From contig DAOVSY010000224.1 of the NCBI GenBank assembly GCA_030633365.1, positions 1 through 5,348 of the forward strand: a stretch of 5,348 bases of DNA. The letters run 5' to 3'. Both the position numbers and the translations under genes were made by a program. The notes beneath the pieces are model-generated. The model was not told where the DNA came from and did not search any database. It worked only from the letters and a program-made list of their open reading frames with translations. This DNA is from Spirochaetaceae bacterium (lineage in GTDB: Bacteria > Spirochaetota > Spirochaetia > B11-G9). Below, one piece after another: positions 1,274-5,306 of the stretch; the stretch's first letter is position 1; every line of letters starts with the position of its first letter.

Positions 1274-1864
1274 TTAAATACTAAAACCCCCAAAAAAAGC
1301 AAGCTGAAAGTTTTTTAAAGGATAGGTTTCAAACTGAGTGGCAGGAATTGGAGAATTACCTATTCTGTATAATAATTTTCCACCTATATGCATGTTATCC
1401 AGTCTAAGAGCTGCACCACCACCTGCCTGGGTAAATAATGATAACTGGAGAGGTTCTCTGAAACCTTCATTACCTTCATAATCAGAAATATCTACCCTGC
1501 CGGCACTGCCCATTCCAAATTCGAGAAAGGGATCTATGGCAAAGTTTCCAAGAATATGGTATCTAAAATCCATTGATCCAATCCAGTCAAGATACCATTC
1601 ATACTCCAGATCAGGTATGGTTGTATCTACTGATGTGAAATTAACCAGATATGTCATTCCAAATCCCATTTTCCCAAGTATAACTTCCCAGTACAGGCCA
1701 GGGATAATATCGATATCTGTATCAAATTCCTGTCGGTTTTCTTCATTAATTGGATTATTCATCAGTTCCATAGCACCAATACCACCCATTCTGAATACTT
1801 CTGCAGATAAAAACCCTGTAGTTAAAGTAAATATCAATATTATAACCATTAGTTTGTGTTTCAT
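1274..1864 (-). CDS. Secreted protein, probable small outer-membrane beta-barrel, family not recognised
   Basis: 196 residues. The N-terminus MKHKLMVIILIFTLTTGFLSA is a standard Sec signal peptide with likely signal peptidase I cleavage after Ala21; there is no lipobox cysteine. The mature part is Gly- and aromatic-rich with alternating hydrophobic stretches that look like beta-strands, at about 56-75, 88-116, 140-153, 158-168 and 184-196. These are joined by polar loops such as DISDYEGNEG. The chain ends in a strand, NFQLAFFGGFSI, though the last residue is Ile rather than the classic Phe. Length and pattern suggest a barrel of about eight strands in the outer membrane. I do not recognise a named family and infer no function. 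The start is supported by AAGGAG (complement of 1871-1876) six bases before the ATG. It is transcribed away from the 2100 gene and toward the transporter. Confidence 0.82.
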   Translation of the reverse strand: MKHKLMVIILIFTLTTGFLSAEVFRMGGIGAMELMNNPINEENRQEFDTDIDIIPGLYWEVILGKMGFGMTYLVNFTSVDTTIPDLEYEWYLDWIGSMDFRYHILGNFAIDPFLEFGMGSAGRVDISDYEGNEGFREPLQLSLFTQAGGGAALRLDNMHIGGKLLYRIGNSPIPATQFETYPLKNFQLAFFGGFSI

Positions 1865-1876: not shown

Positions 1877-1943
1877 TTATGTTCATCTAATATATGGAAC
1901 ACCTTTACAAGTTTAATATGTCACTCCTAATTATTTGATTGTT

Positions 1944-1967
1944 AAATTTTTTTAAGTTTAAAAAAAA
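1944..1967. promoter_or_regulatory. Opposed T- and A-tracts in the divergent intergenic region
   Basis: A run of seven T (1947-1953) and a run of eight A (1960-1967) form a nearly contiguous inverted repeat (TTTTTTTAA at 1947-1955, TTAAAAAAA at 1958-1966). Phased A/T tracts between divergent genes often bend DNA or act as UP elements for RNA polymerase. The tracts are seen directly; the role is inferred. I could not assign a convincing -35/-10 pair beside them on either strand. Confidence 0.35.
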
Positions 1968-1994
1968 TCTTTTCTATGTTATATTAATTGAATA

Positions 1995-2015
1995 AGCTTA
2001 CTAATTAAGTAAGCT
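1995..2015. promoter_or_regulatory. Perfect 8+8 inverted repeat, candidate operator
   Basis: AGCTTACT (1995-2002) and AGTAAGCT (2008-2015) are perfect reverse complements around a 5-base AT centre. It lies in the divergent intergenic region, about 85 bases before the 2100 start and 130 bases before the minus-strand start. Two-fold symmetry of this size is typical of a dimeric regulator's site. A terminator is unlikely because neither neighbouring gene ends here. Confidence 0.45.
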
Positions 2016-2018
2016 CTA

Positions 2019-2058
2019 ACCGGATCTGTAGCAGCATGCTCATCCTAAATTACCGGAT
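2019..2058 (+). promoter_or_regulatory. Direct repeat ACCGGAT x2 upstream of the 2100 gene
   Basis: ACCGGAT occurs at 2019-2025 and 2052-2058, start to start 33 bases, close to three helical turns. The second copy overlaps GATAAT (2056-2061), a possible -10 hexamer that would place the transcription start near 2068 and give a leader of about 30 bases. No good -35 is present, which would fit an activator-dependent promoter. An 8-base palindrome AGCATGCT (2033-2040) lies between the copies. Speculative. Confidence 0.3.
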
Positions 2059-2087
2059 AATTATATGTCACAAAGTATAATTTGATT

Positions 2088-2092
2088 AGGAG
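2088..2092 (+). promoter_or_regulatory. Ribosome binding site that sets the start of the CsgG-like gene at 2100
   Basis: AGGAG lies seven bases before ATG 2100-2102. An in-frame TTG at 2082 lies upstream of this site and would put the Shine-Dalgarno sequence inside the coding region, so it is not the start. Confidence 0.88.
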
Positions 2093-2099
2093 CAAAAAT

Positions 2100-3467
2100 A
2101 TGAAATACTTTTTTCTTGTTTTCCTGCTGCTTCCCACTATGCTGTTCTCCCTATCAGTTTCAGATACCATTTATAGTCTTGTCGAAGAACTTGCTGCTGA
2201 ATACACAGCACTTAAATCTGAAGATCCCTTCTATTCTAAACAAACAGTATCAATAATCGAGATAAAAAATGCATCGAAAGATGCTGCTGAAAACTATGTG
2301 GGTGAGGCTGTTGAGGAACTGCTGAAAAGTGCAATTACTGACAGTTTGGTTTTTAAATTTATAGACCGCCGGGCTCTGGATACAGCAATGGAGGAGATTA
2401 AACTTTCCCTGACGGGACTTACTGATGAAAATGACAGTATGGAGATTGGAAATATCCGTGGGCTCCGACTCTTAATGGATGGAAGTGTGACCTCAGACGA
2501 TGGCAATTTTATATTAAGTCTACAGCTTATTGAGGTAGAAACAACAGAACTTATTGCAACTGTAAGCAAATCTATCCCCAAAGAGGAGATGATAGAGGTC
2601 GGGAAGCAGATAGCATACGAGTATGTAACAGCCAATGGAATTGGAACCTCACTGTTTTTTACTCCTACAAGATATCTTCTTGTCCCTCAGGATGAAGCTG
2701 TAAAAGTTGGAGATGATTTAATTCATGCCGGATCAGCAGGAGGAAGGCTTACCTACAGACTGGGACCGAAGTGGAAGGTAAGCCTGAATATCGATTTTAA
2801 ATTTCATGATGTGTTTTTTGATTATAGACCCATTGGGGGTATGGCTAATCTGACGGCTATAGATGATATATTTTTTGATCTCGATATATTAGGTGTATGG
2901 CAAAATGATGGAAGTTTAGACTCGTATCCAACTGGAAGCTTTGCTGATGAAGATGCTGTCAGAGCTTATCTTAACGCACAGTCCAACTACTACACCTTAT
3001 CACAATTTACAACTACAACAGGTCTGGTTTTCTCCTATGTCCACTCCATCAATCAGAAAATGAACATATCCGCAGGACTTGGTCCTCATATAAACTTTAT
3101 GCAGCTTAGACAGCTCTACGATAACGTACCCATACTTATAAATCAGGGTATTGCTTTTAAAAGATATGAGGTTGTGATGAACTTTATCGGGCTTGGAGCT
3201 ACGACTGCCATAGATTTCGAGTACTTCATTCTTCCGCGGTTTGCACTTAACATTGGTTGTACTTATCTGTTTTCTATAATGTTACCGCCCTCAGAACTTG
3301 ATGCTCAAAGTCCAACAACAGGTGAATACTACTATTCTACCGATAACTTTGCAATTGAGTCTTTTGGTTTGAATCCCTTTATGATGCCCGATGGAAGAAT
3401 GATCAGTGAGAGTCTATATTCACCTAATCATTTTAAGGTCTATCTGGGGTTTTCAACTTATTTTTGA
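2100..3467 (+). CDS. Exported protein: CsgG-like N-terminal domain plus C-terminal predicted outer-membrane beta-barrel
   Basis: 455 residues from ATG 2100. Residues 1-18 (MKYFFLVFLLLPTMLFSL) form a Sec signal peptide without a lipobox cysteine. Residues about 48-160 resemble the CsgG/LpoB/FlgO-type periplasmic alpha/beta fold. Cues are a strand (VSIIEIKNAS), a helix (VGEAVEELLKSAITD), FKFIDRRALDTAMEEIKLSLTGLTDE, then IGNIRGLRLLMDGSVT and a beta pair ending LIEVETTELIATV. From about 185 the chain becomes strand-rich with amphipathic, aromatic segments (WKVSLNIDFKFH, TTGLVFSYVHS, MNISAGLGPHI, FALNIGCTYLF) and ends HFKVYLGFSTYF. The terminal Phe is typical of barrels recognised by the BAM machinery. 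Classical CsgG is a lipoprotein that makes its pore from this fold; here anchoring seems to come from a dedicated C-terminal barrel. Exact role unknown: perhaps an envelope sensor or assembly factor. The gene is monocistronic, divergent from the 1864 gene. Confidence 0.85.
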   Translation: MKYFFLVFLLLPTMLFSLSVSDTIYSLVEELAAEYTALKSEDPFYSKQTVSIIEIKNASKDAAENYVGEAVEELLKSAITDSLVFKFIDRRALDTAMEEIKLSLTGLTDENDSMEIGNIRGLRLLMDGSVTSDDGNFILSLQLIEVETTELIATVSKSIPKEEMIEVGKQIAYEYVTANGIGTSLFFTPTRYLLVPQDEAVKVGDDLIHAGSAGGRLTYRLGPKWKVSLNIDFKFHDVFFDYRPIGGMANLTAIDDIFFDLDILGVWQNDGSLDSYPTGSFADEDAVRAYLNAQSNYYTLSQFTTTTGLVFSYVHSINQKMNISAGLGPHINFMQLRQLYDNVPILINQGIAFKRYEVVMNFIGLGATTAIDFEYFILPRFALNIGCTYLFSIMLPPSELDAQSPTTGEYYYSTDNFAIESFGLNPFMMPDGRMISESLYSPNHFKVYLGFSTYF

Positions 3468-3500
3468 TTTATTAAAACATTGAATCTATTCCCCTGTGAC

Positions 3501-3531
3501 CTTTAATATCTTGATTAAACTGATATTAGGG
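3501..3531 (+). terminator. Stem-loop after the CsgG-like gene, weak terminator candidate
   Basis: CTTTAATATC (3501-3510) pairs with GATATTAGGG (3522-3531), giving seven Watson-Crick pairs, two G-U pairs and a closing C-G pair around an 11-base loop. It starts 34 bases after the stop. The stem is AT-rich and no T-run follows, so it is a poor intrinsic terminator; Rho or another signal may act instead. Confidence 0.3.
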
Positions 3532-3748
3532 TAAATGACTAAAATAGTTATATTTAAACAATAATGAATAATAAGCAAATAAAATCTCTATTATCTGCAA
3601 ATAATTTAAACTTTAATGATAAAATGGTAGTTAATATGTACTAACTTTCTAAATATTTAAGTGTAATAGGTTATTAAAATCAAATATGGTGATAAAAGTT
3701 AATGACATTAAAACAATATGCAGTTATGCTGTTAAAGATAGTTTTAAT
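3532..3748. other. AT-rich gene-free region
   Basis: No open frame with a ribosome site is present on either strand. The longest plus-strand ATG-led frame I followed by eye starts at 3702, has 16 codons and lacks a Shine-Dalgarno sequence. A minus-strand frame at 3680-3877 crosses the start of the lipoprotein gene and looks like its shadow. The visible structure is the palindrome at 3699-3711 and a weaker AGTTA/TAACT pair near 3630-3650. It is either a long upstream regulatory region or degraded sequence. Confidence 0.55.
3699..3711. promoter_or_regulatory. Palindrome TTAATG-A-CATTAA, candidate operator
   Basis: A perfect 6+1+6 inverted repeat, 37 bases upstream of the putative -35 hexamer of the lipoprotein gene. 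That is a plausible position for an activator dimer. In DNA this AT-rich, chance occurrence is a real possibility. Confidence 0.3.
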
Positions 3749-3776
3749 TTGACTCTCTATGTTTATAGATAATAAT
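3749..3776 (+). promoter_or_regulatory. Putative sigma-70-type promoter of the twin FmdE-like lipoprotein gene
   Basis: TTGACT at 3749-3754 (five of six with TTGACA) and AATAAT at 3771-3776 (five of six with TATAAT) are separated by 16 bases. Initiation near 3783 would give a leader of about 45 bases ending at the AGGAG site. This also excludes an in-frame ATG at 3759, which would lie upstream of the transcript. Confidence 0.5.
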
Positions 3777-3815
3777 TGCTTGAGATTCTTAGAGAAACTT
3801 AAATCTACACTAAAT

Positions 3816-3820
3816 AGGAG
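3816..3820 (+). promoter_or_regulatory. Ribosome binding site of the lipoprotein gene
   Basis: AGGAG is followed after seven bases by ATG 3828 and after ten by a second ATG at 3831. Spacing favours 3828. A start at either gives a proper lipoprotein signal peptide; the in-frame ATG at 3759 does not. Confidence 0.85.
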
Positions 3821-3827
3821 ACAGGGG

Positions 3828-5306
3828 ATGATGAAGAAACTGCATTTTATTTTTGCGATAGCAATTGTTGCTATCATGTTCTTATCTGCATGTGCGAGTT
3901 TAACTCAGGGGGATGCTATCTATGATGGAAAGATAGCTGAAGAAGTAGATTTTTCCTGGGACCAGGATTATATTACTGAAGTACCTCCCATTATGATGAT
4001 TGATCCGTATTTTCAGATTTTTGGACAGTCTCAGGTAGCTGTGCCATATACTTATGAAAATGCTGTTAAACTGGCTGGTCACTCCTGTGGTGCAGTTACA
4101 GGTGCATGGACAATAGCCCGTAAAGCTCTTGAAGTGCTTTATCCTGGTGGTGAAATTCCTGTACGTGGTCAGATTGCTGTAGAAGCTCCTGGTGCAGAAG
4201 ATGAATGGTTTGTTGGTGTCTTTGGTGAAGTTATTACATTTATAACAGGTGCCGCTCCTAAAACTGGATTTATTGGTGCAGAATTTGGGCAGACAGATGA
4301 TGTATTTATTCGTCAAAACAAAATGACCTATCCGGATGAACCTGTAGGAACACCTCCTCCTAAGATGGAGTGGATTTTTACACGAACTGATACAGGTGCA
4401 AAAGTTGGAGTTATATTTAACCTTGCTGTAATTACACCAGTTGCAACACCTGAACGTCAGGAAATGGGTAAAAAAATGGCTGCTGGTACAGCTACTTCAG
4501 AAGAAGCTGCTGACTATTACGAATACTGGAATAAAAGGGCAACATTTGTATTGGATAATGCAGATTCCCTGGATGGTTTTTTTAGAGTAACTACTTATAA
4601 AGAAGGTCCTGCCACAACAGCTTCTGCTGTTGCTCCAGCATCCTCTGAGGGGTTTTCCTGGGATCAGGAATATATTACACAAGTACCGCCAATTATGGTA
4701 ATTGATCCTTATTTCAGCATTTTTGGACAATCACAGGTTCCTGTTCCTTATTATTACGAAGAAGCTGTTAAGCTGGCCGGACATTCATGCGGTGCAATAA
4801 CTGGAGCATGGGAAATGGCCCGTAAAGCCCTTGAAGCACTTTATCCTGATGGAGAAATCCCTATGCGTGGGCAAATTTCTGTAGATGCCCCTGGTGCAGA
4901 AGATGAATGGTTTGTTGGTGTCTTTGGTGATGTAATAACCTTCCTTACCGGAGCTTCACCTCACACAGGTTTTATTGGTGCAGAGTTTGGAAAAACAGAT
5001 GATATCTTTGTTCGTCAAAATAAAATGGTCTATGATGAAAAACCAACCAAACAAATGCCTCCTGCCAGAGAATGGATTTTTACACGAACTGATACAGGTG
5101 CAAAAGTTGGTGTAAAATATAACCTCGTTATCATTCTTCCAATTCCAACTCCAGGACGTATAGCAATGGGAAAGAAAATGGCCGCAGGTACAGCTACACC
5201 TGAAGAAGCTGCTGATTATATTGAATACTGGAATGCCAGAGCAATATATACATTAGAAAATTCTGATGAAATAGATGGTTTTATTTCAGTTAAAGTTTAT
5301 AACTAA
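3828..5306 (+). CDS. Lipoprotein with two tandem FmdE-like domains
   Basis: 492 residues. The signal peptide MMKKLHFIFAIAIVAIMFLSAC ends in lipobox L-S-A-C, with Cys22 the lipidated residue. Two homologous domains follow at 42-257 and 276-491, offset by exactly 234 residues with no gap and about 74% identical by hand count. They are joined by an Ala/Ser/Thr/Pro-rich linker (258-275). Each contains KLAGHSCGA, APGAEDEWFVGVFG, TGFIGAEFG, RQNKM, RTDTGAKVGV and GTAT-EEAADY-EYWN-RA. From memory, this order (GHSC, then a Gly-rich block, then R-x-DTG, then a W-x-x-R helix) matches bacterial proteins annotated as FmdE family, named after subunit E of formylmethanofuran dehydrogenase. Such proteins usually have one domain and GHSCP; here Gly replaces Pro. 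His85/Cys87 and His319/Cys321 are the only His-Cys pairs and may bind a metal. No CxxC zinc finger is seen. Substrate unknown; it should sit at the periplasmic face or cell surface. Confidence 0.85.
   Translation: MMKKLHFIFAIAIVAIMFLSACASLTQGDAIYDGKIAEEVDFSWDQDYITEVPPIMMIDPYFQIFGQSQVAVPYTYENAVKLAGHSCGAVTGAWTIARKALEVLYPGGEIPVRGQIAVEAPGAEDEWFVGVFGEVITFITGAAPKTGFIGAEFGQTDDVFIRQNKMTYPDEPVGTPPPKMEWIFTRTDTGAKVGVIFNLAVITPVATPERQEMGKKMAAGTATSEEAADYYEYWNKRATFVLDNADSLDGFFRVTTYKEGPATTASAVAPASSEGFSWDQEYITQVPPIMVIDPYFSIFGQSQVPVPYYYEEAVKLAGHSCGAITGAWEMARKALEALYPDGEIPMRGQISVDAPGAEDEWFVGVFGDVITFLTGASPHTGFIGAEFGKTDDIFVRQNKMVYDEKPTKQMPPAREWIFTRTDTGAKVGVKYNLVIILPIPTPGRIAMGKKMAAGTATPEEAADYIEYWNARAIYTLENSDEIDGFISVKVYN
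3951..4598 (+). repeat. Internal duplication, copy 1 (FmdE-like domain A)
   Basis: Encodes residues 42-257, from FSWDQDYIT to FRVTTY. It pairs without indels with copy 2 at a constant offset of 702 bases. Stretches 4188-4228 (41 bases) and 4371-4408 (38 bases) are identical to 4890-4930 and 5073-5110, while other conserved stretches differ at silent sites. Confidence 0.93.
4653..5300 (+). repeat. Internal duplication, copy 2 (FmdE-like domain B)
   Basis: Encodes residues 276-491, from FSWDQEYIT to ISVKVY. It differs from copy 1 mainly in the region between RQNKM and EWIFTR, where nine residues in a short span change, and in the last third. It carries one extra histidine, His379 (ASPHTGF), where copy 1 has Lys145. 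Confidence 0.93.

Follow-up and report, generated by a model that had tools for sequence, protein, structure and literature searches.

The window, by which we mean the whole 5,348-nucleotide stretch analysed, ends in a plus-strand gene for a protein with two domain copies on one chain, here called the twin protein. Its features are the following.

3816..3820, plus strand: AGGAG, probable ribosome-binding site, read from the sequence, 7 bases before the ATG at 3828
3828..5306, plus strand: whole gene, open reading frame of 492 amino acids plus stop, ATG start
3828..3890, plus strand: signal sequence, residues 1-21, ending in LSA; hydrophobic, read by eye
3891..3893, plus strand: lipobox Cys22 (LSAC), predicted lipid attachment site; a lipobox is found likewise in two-motif relatives
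3951..4598, plus strand: FmdE-type domain 1, residues 42-257 (profile search, copy alignment, full-length model)
4077..4088, plus strand: GHSC motif of domain 1, residues 84-87 (sequence reading, motif count in relatives)
4599..4652, plus strand: linker, residues 258-275; low model confidence at about 261-270
4653..5303, plus strand: FmdE-type domain 2, residues 276-492
4779..4790, plus strand: GHSC motif of domain 2, residues 318-321 (sequence reading, motif count in relatives)

Aligned with each other, residues 42-257 and 276-492 are 74% identical over 216 residues with no gap (protein alignment, E 1e-125), bearing out the tandem arrangement described in an earlier sequence-only reading. Its limits of 42-257 for the first domain and 276 for the start of the second also stand, but the second domain ends at residue 492 rather than 491. 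At the DNA level the gene contains a repeat at 702-base spacing, the two stretches of which are 80% and 75% identical, far beyond chance. The lipobox that the same reading had placed at Cys22 is present after the hydrophobic signal, and the twin protein therefore has the signal sequence with lipobox that characterizes bacterial lipoproteins. From these features we infer that it is exported and lipidated; its place would be the outer face of a membrane. Besides Cys22 the only cysteines are Cys87 and Cys321, each within a GHSC motif and hence one per domain.

Elsewhere in the window, positions 2100-3467 (plus strand) encode a CsgG-domain protein with a long C-terminal part (PF03783, 2.3e-7), and positions 1274-1864 (minus strand) encode an exported-looking protein of 196 residues with no Pfam or NCBIfam match. 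At the start of the window, positions 83-103 and 153-173 form a non-coding 21-base direct repeat, 90% identical, with the core CCCTTTCAGGGC; it may be a REP-like element. An Rfam scan gave nothing at gathering scores. As had been noted from the letters alone, no methanofuran-pathway gene is seen, and no fmd or fwd catalytic-subunit gene lies beside the twin gene within the window, which reaches about 4 kb upstream and only 42 bases downstream of it.

Family match, fold and metal site

The name FmdE derives from a methanogenesis operon, and the function of FmdE proteins themselves is unsettled. The proposed family match holds for the whole protein, which PF02663 matches at E 7.1e-5 with 23.3 bits (gathering cut-off 22.9), whereas each copy alone stays below the cut-off, at 16.6 and 12.3 bits. 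PF02663 also matches 19 of 66 aligned relatives at E 0.05. We compared the predicted structure with solved FmdE-family proteins, and three of these, 2glz, 2gvi and 3d00, were its top three structural matches (in a second look with VIA-align only). The model has the alpha+beta core fold of the solved members and a whole-chain pTM of 0.84, and we predict from it an FmdE fold and a compact two-domain arrangement. Foldseek with the model against the PDB gave no match with E < 1, and searching the solved structures by sequence, both with the protein and with the twin profile (A1), gave nothing at E <= 10. Aligning profile A1 with 16 Spirochaetota PF02663 proteins by hhalign gave 17.6% probability over 30 columns, with GHSC placed on FHGH.

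According to Axelrod 2010 (PMC2954224), the FmdE metal ligands are His15, His17 and Cys19 of the motif FHGHxC, plus Cys55; 3d00 has likewise lost two of the four and has no metal bound, and most PF02663 genes adjoin metal-ion transporter genes. The terms lipoprotein, periplasm, signal peptide, tandem and secreted are absent from the text of that paper covered by a term search. The solved proteins resemble the twin protein in domain fold and in the His and Cys of GHxC, and their dimers would correspond to the idea of a fused pair. Unlike them, the twin carries a signal and lipobox and has two domains per chain. Its GHSC motifs supply the counterparts of His17 and Cys19 but nothing replaces His15 or Cys55, and with no Cys after residue 321 it also lacks the C-terminal treble-clef zinc finger of the 2gvi and 3d00 subset. 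Because GHSC retains only two of the four ligands that characterize the 2glz and 2gvi subset, the twin protein is, by its sequence, a member of the FmdE family outside the four-ligand metal-binding subset; family membership does not need that site.

Metal binding by the twin GHSC motifs is nonetheless likely on our analysis, because this His and Cys are among the residues with which solved FmdE proteins hold their metal. The envelope function proposed earlier is partly supported: the family, the predicted anchor and the tandem copies stand, while a metal, a cofactor or a carbon compound would be no more than a candidate ligand; two of the four FmdE metal ligands are absent. An organic ligand or cofactor, one of the options then named, seems to us very unlikely. 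A large cleft is present in FmdE dimers, and in 2gvi an unknown ligand is bonded to Cys61 (Axelrod 2010, PMC2954224), but the twin has no Cys at the Cys61/Cys55 position, and no C1 or solute-uptake set was recognized as recurring beside the Anaerolineae forms, several of whose neighbours lack an assignment. Another possibility is that the GHSC Cys reacts directly with NO or related species, making the twin a thiol-based scavenger or sensor at the envelope without a metal. Such a role would suit the single Cys per domain, always in GHSC, and the loss of two metal ligands, but the invariant His beside that Cys suits a metal ligand at least equally.

The motif is widely kept. We assembled 239 proteins (the window protein and the best of two listings, up to 120 each), and among these listed matches 116 have two motifs; a lipobox is present in 109 of the 116 and exactly two cysteines after residue 35 in 112. 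Single-motif proteins (lipobox in 57 of 104 among the matches listed) were kept out, as many of these rows are contig fragments. The aligned proteins of Alphaproteobacteria, haloarchaea and spirochaetes share GHSC as well as a number of Arg, Gly and Pro positions, with one exception, a lipoprotein of spirochaete G508 that has GHVC.

Distribution and descent

A scan of genome contigs gave 21 loci, 20 in Chloroflexota and one in a Spirochaetales MAG (L002). In even draws, profile A1 had matches in 3 of 400 Chloroflexota genomes (two of the three found previously) and in 4 of 392 Spirochaetota genomes; of the latter, G001 has a twin and the other three have distant single domains. Within the order of genome G006, 9 of 151 genomes match, four with a twin and five with a single-domain form. 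The Anaerolineae twin lipoproteins (L001, L003, L007, L020 and others) are direct relatives of the window protein, up to 89% identical over 448 columns. The twin belongs to a conserved family centred on Anaerolineae.

In contrast to these lipoproteins, ordinary FmdE proteins of spirochaetes appear to stay in the cytosol, as the sequence-only reading had supposed for the family at large: PF02663 occurs in 38 of 247 Spirochaetota genomes, and none of 30 inspected loci encodes a lipobox, the possible starts lying shortly before the motif. At 23 of these 30 loci (L048-L077) the motif Cys is replaced by Ala (FHGxxAPG), as it is in a large group of FmdE proteins that lack this ligand.

We built a domain tree from 22 of 25 twins (those with two motifs) and from single-motif proteins of 195-310 aa, taking only the even-numbered ones of the latter. 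A single set (support 99) unites the 22 first domains with 8 single-motif rows, some of which are perhaps fragments of twins. Because the first domains group in this way, the duplication is old, and a recent duplication was rejected. In a 92-row tree made by a quick method, the window copy belongs to a set of six (SH-aLRT 99), four of its five set-mates being named Anaerolineae or Anaerolineales MAGs; L002 was placed elsewhere in the tree.

The genes next to the window copy look spirochaetal in sequence. Its CsgG-domain neighbour has a full-length match in spirochaete G669 at 55% (E 1.9e-159) and weaker ones in two other spirochaetes, with no match in G001 or in the five Chloroflexota tested; EamA relatives lie on the same stretch of G669 as its CsgG-domain relative. 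GC3 of the twin gene is 0.217, against 0.207, 0.279 and 0.34 for its window neighbours and 0.36-0.38 for three Anaerolineae copies. Judged from such sequence comparisons, the twin gene probably moved from Anaerolineae into a spirochaete and adapted later, with the qualification that MAG contigs can be misplaced.

Gene neighbourhoods of the relatives

Whereas the window copy sits among spirochaete-like genes, Anaerolineae twins lie with a recurrent membrane-protein family (16 of the 21 loci), CRP/FNR-like regulators (14 of 21) and a NapH-like protein with two Fer4_5 stretches (13 of 21), L002 being among none of these; neighbour families were identified by scanning representatives. A UbiA protein, a formylglycine-enzyme-like lipoprotein, MarR and a protein with a sub-threshold NnrS match also recur, and these last four surround single-domain forms as well. 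No partner gene was found beside the twin on the window contig or the L002 contig. Given how often the NapH-like protein and the membrane family recur, and given that the same gene set surrounds single-domain forms, the twin might be the extracytoplasmic subunit of an uncharacterized Anaerolineae respiratory complex. We consider this improbable, however: the domain has no recognized redox cofactor site, the window and L002 twins are without these genes on their contigs, and so are the cytosolic relatives in the regions read.

The same Anaerolineae island recurrently holds a membrane protein of about 512 residues with conserved GHLH and GHWH (L011:9554-11086; L079:2900-4435, minus strand; alignment A3). 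Neither Pfam nor NCBIfam has a match to it, and it may be a metal or heme protein. Directly after two single-domain FmdE genes lie genes for Tat-signal proteins with two 4Fe-4S motifs (L129:10333-12120 and L130:10247-11962), which have a sub-threshold match to reductive dehalogenases (PF13486, 8e-5 and 6.4e-4). A reductive-dehalogenase operon was rejected, there being only two such loci, with scores under the Pfam cut-off.

In genome G020 a cytochrome cd1 protein (PF02239, 2.7e-127) is encoded 3.5 kb from the twin, the two being separated by three CRP/FNR-like genes and a membrane-protein gene. No twin-type FmdE gene was found at the cd1 loci read in 10 other Chloroflexota carriers, several of which end at a contig end, and in the non-carrier G126 cd1, a cupin and an NnrS-like membrane protein occur together without FmdE. 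A fixed nirS operon was discarded, as cd1 lies near the FmdE gene only in G020. At the genome level, full-length cd1 is present in 9 of 15 Chloroflexota carriers versus 5 of 248 others in the phylum draw (p 6e-10; Fisher, ancestry ignored), the non-carriers being genomes of the 400-genome draw unmatched by profile A1. The closer control, the order of G006, gave 6 of 9 carriers versus 25 of 142 others (p 0.0026; Fisher, ancestry ignored), and four of those six carriers hold the single-domain form. NosZ is a copper enzyme, and copper supply to it in Anaerolineae was set aside, since NosZ (TIGR04246 only) is found in none of the 9 carriers of this order, against 10 of the 142 others. In carrier G014, a protein with the look of a cytosolic FmdE relative (L113:15748-16398, minus strand) is encoded about 4.2 kb from a cd1 gene.

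More distant relatives of GHSC type, annotated as 'FmdE family protein' in Azospirillum, Paracoccus, Turneriella and haloarchaea, share GHSC, Pro-x-Arg, Thr-Gly-Ala and Gly-Phe-x-Gly with the twin, and their homology to its profile is detectable (L045 against A1, E 7.9e-33). In contrast to the twin, they have about 200 residues, one domain and no signal, and are encoded beside nirK, NnrS or heavy-metal ATPase genes; those with such neighbours are about 31-35% identical to it. Of 38 matching plasmid records we read 15 regions, three of them without annotation. In Azospirillum (four regions), hemerythrin adjoins the FmdE gene in all four and nirK in three, lying 4.9 kb off in the fourth with insertion sequences between; NorQ-family and oxidase-subunit-I genes, read as norQ and norB, occur in two, as does hmpA. 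All three Paracoccus regions have NnrS nearby (Pfam), and DUF1971 adjoins the FmdE gene in two (Pfam), with a similar ORF in the same place in the third; an Rrf2 regulator in P. ferrooxidans is similar to RirA and to NsrR but reaches the cut-off of neither. The Sulfuricurvum region contains napAGH, Crp/Fnr, MoaA and FmdE; a Ciceribacter region was read from a record without annotation. In all six haloarchaeal regions the order is HMA protein, heavy-metal P-type ATPase, FmdE, and no nitrite or NO genes are present in these regions. Copper specificity could not be assigned to this ATPase: its motif is CPG, and the single protein that we scanned passes the cut-offs of the cadmium and the copper subfamily models alike.

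The company of the relatives points to nitrite/NO metabolism and heavy-metal transport rather than C1 chemistry. NnrS, hemerythrin and hmpA would also suit a thiol protein reacting with NO, but the haloarchaeal relatives belong to an operon with a heavy-metal ATPase, where the regions read show neither nitrite nor NO genes, and we hold a metal-free thiol role to be unlikely. In a limited literature collection (titles and abstract openings) we found nothing tying FmdE to NO, and the limited collection likewise gave nothing on Anaerolineae with NO reductase, NirS and lipoprotein, or joining formylmethanofuran dehydrogenase, NsrR and nitric oxide.

A predicted role in metal handling at the envelope

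We favour the view that the twin is a lipid-anchored two-domain FmdE protein acting, through GHSC, as a predicted envelope metal buffer or carrier for cells handling nitrite or NO, and give it a little less than an even chance. The signal and lipobox would place it outside a membrane, with a metal ion held in each domain by the His and Cys of GHSC; double-headed in this way, the protein would serve as a buffer or carrier of metal at an envelope exposed to nitrite or NO. We infer the link to nitrite or NO solely from neighbours and co-occurrence in relatives. In weighing this model we counted in its favour the structural matches, the conserved GHSC with its two cysteines, the nirK, NnrS, nap and cd1 company, the cd1 co-occurrence in one order, the haloarchaeal ATPase company, the metal-ion transporter neighbours described by Axelrod 2010 and a distant FmdE lipoprotein near a TonB receptor (G508). 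Against it we counted the half-lost metal site (3d00, with a similar loss, has no metal there), the lack of partners in the window and on L002, the cd1 loci read without a twin-type FmdE gene, the G126 set without FmdE, a cd1 statistic that ignores ancestry, the absence of NosZ from the 9 carriers and the distance of the relatives with the clearest context.

More broadly, the FmdE proteins of GHSC type might be one overlooked family for metal handling in nitrite/NO metabolism. Its members would be cytosolic in Proteobacteria and archaea, whereas Anaerolineae and spirochaetes would export a lipid-anchored, double-headed version, the twin, that has passed between phyla; we regard this as possible, with the odds somewhat against it. 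A conserved exported twin, taken with the relatives' company of nitrite reductases, NnrS, hemerythrin and heavy-metal ATPase, would give these misleadingly named proteins a testable role, within reach in organisms kept in the laboratory, among them Paracoccus, Azospirillum and Haloarcula.

The lipoprotein of spirochaete G508 (L078) is a distant single-domain FmdE protein. At this locus (ORFs 115-861, 907-1749 and 1898-3952, all minus strand) it adjoins a lipoprotein-like protein and the TonB receptor, suggesting metal or chelate uptake, and the genome has a full-length cd1.
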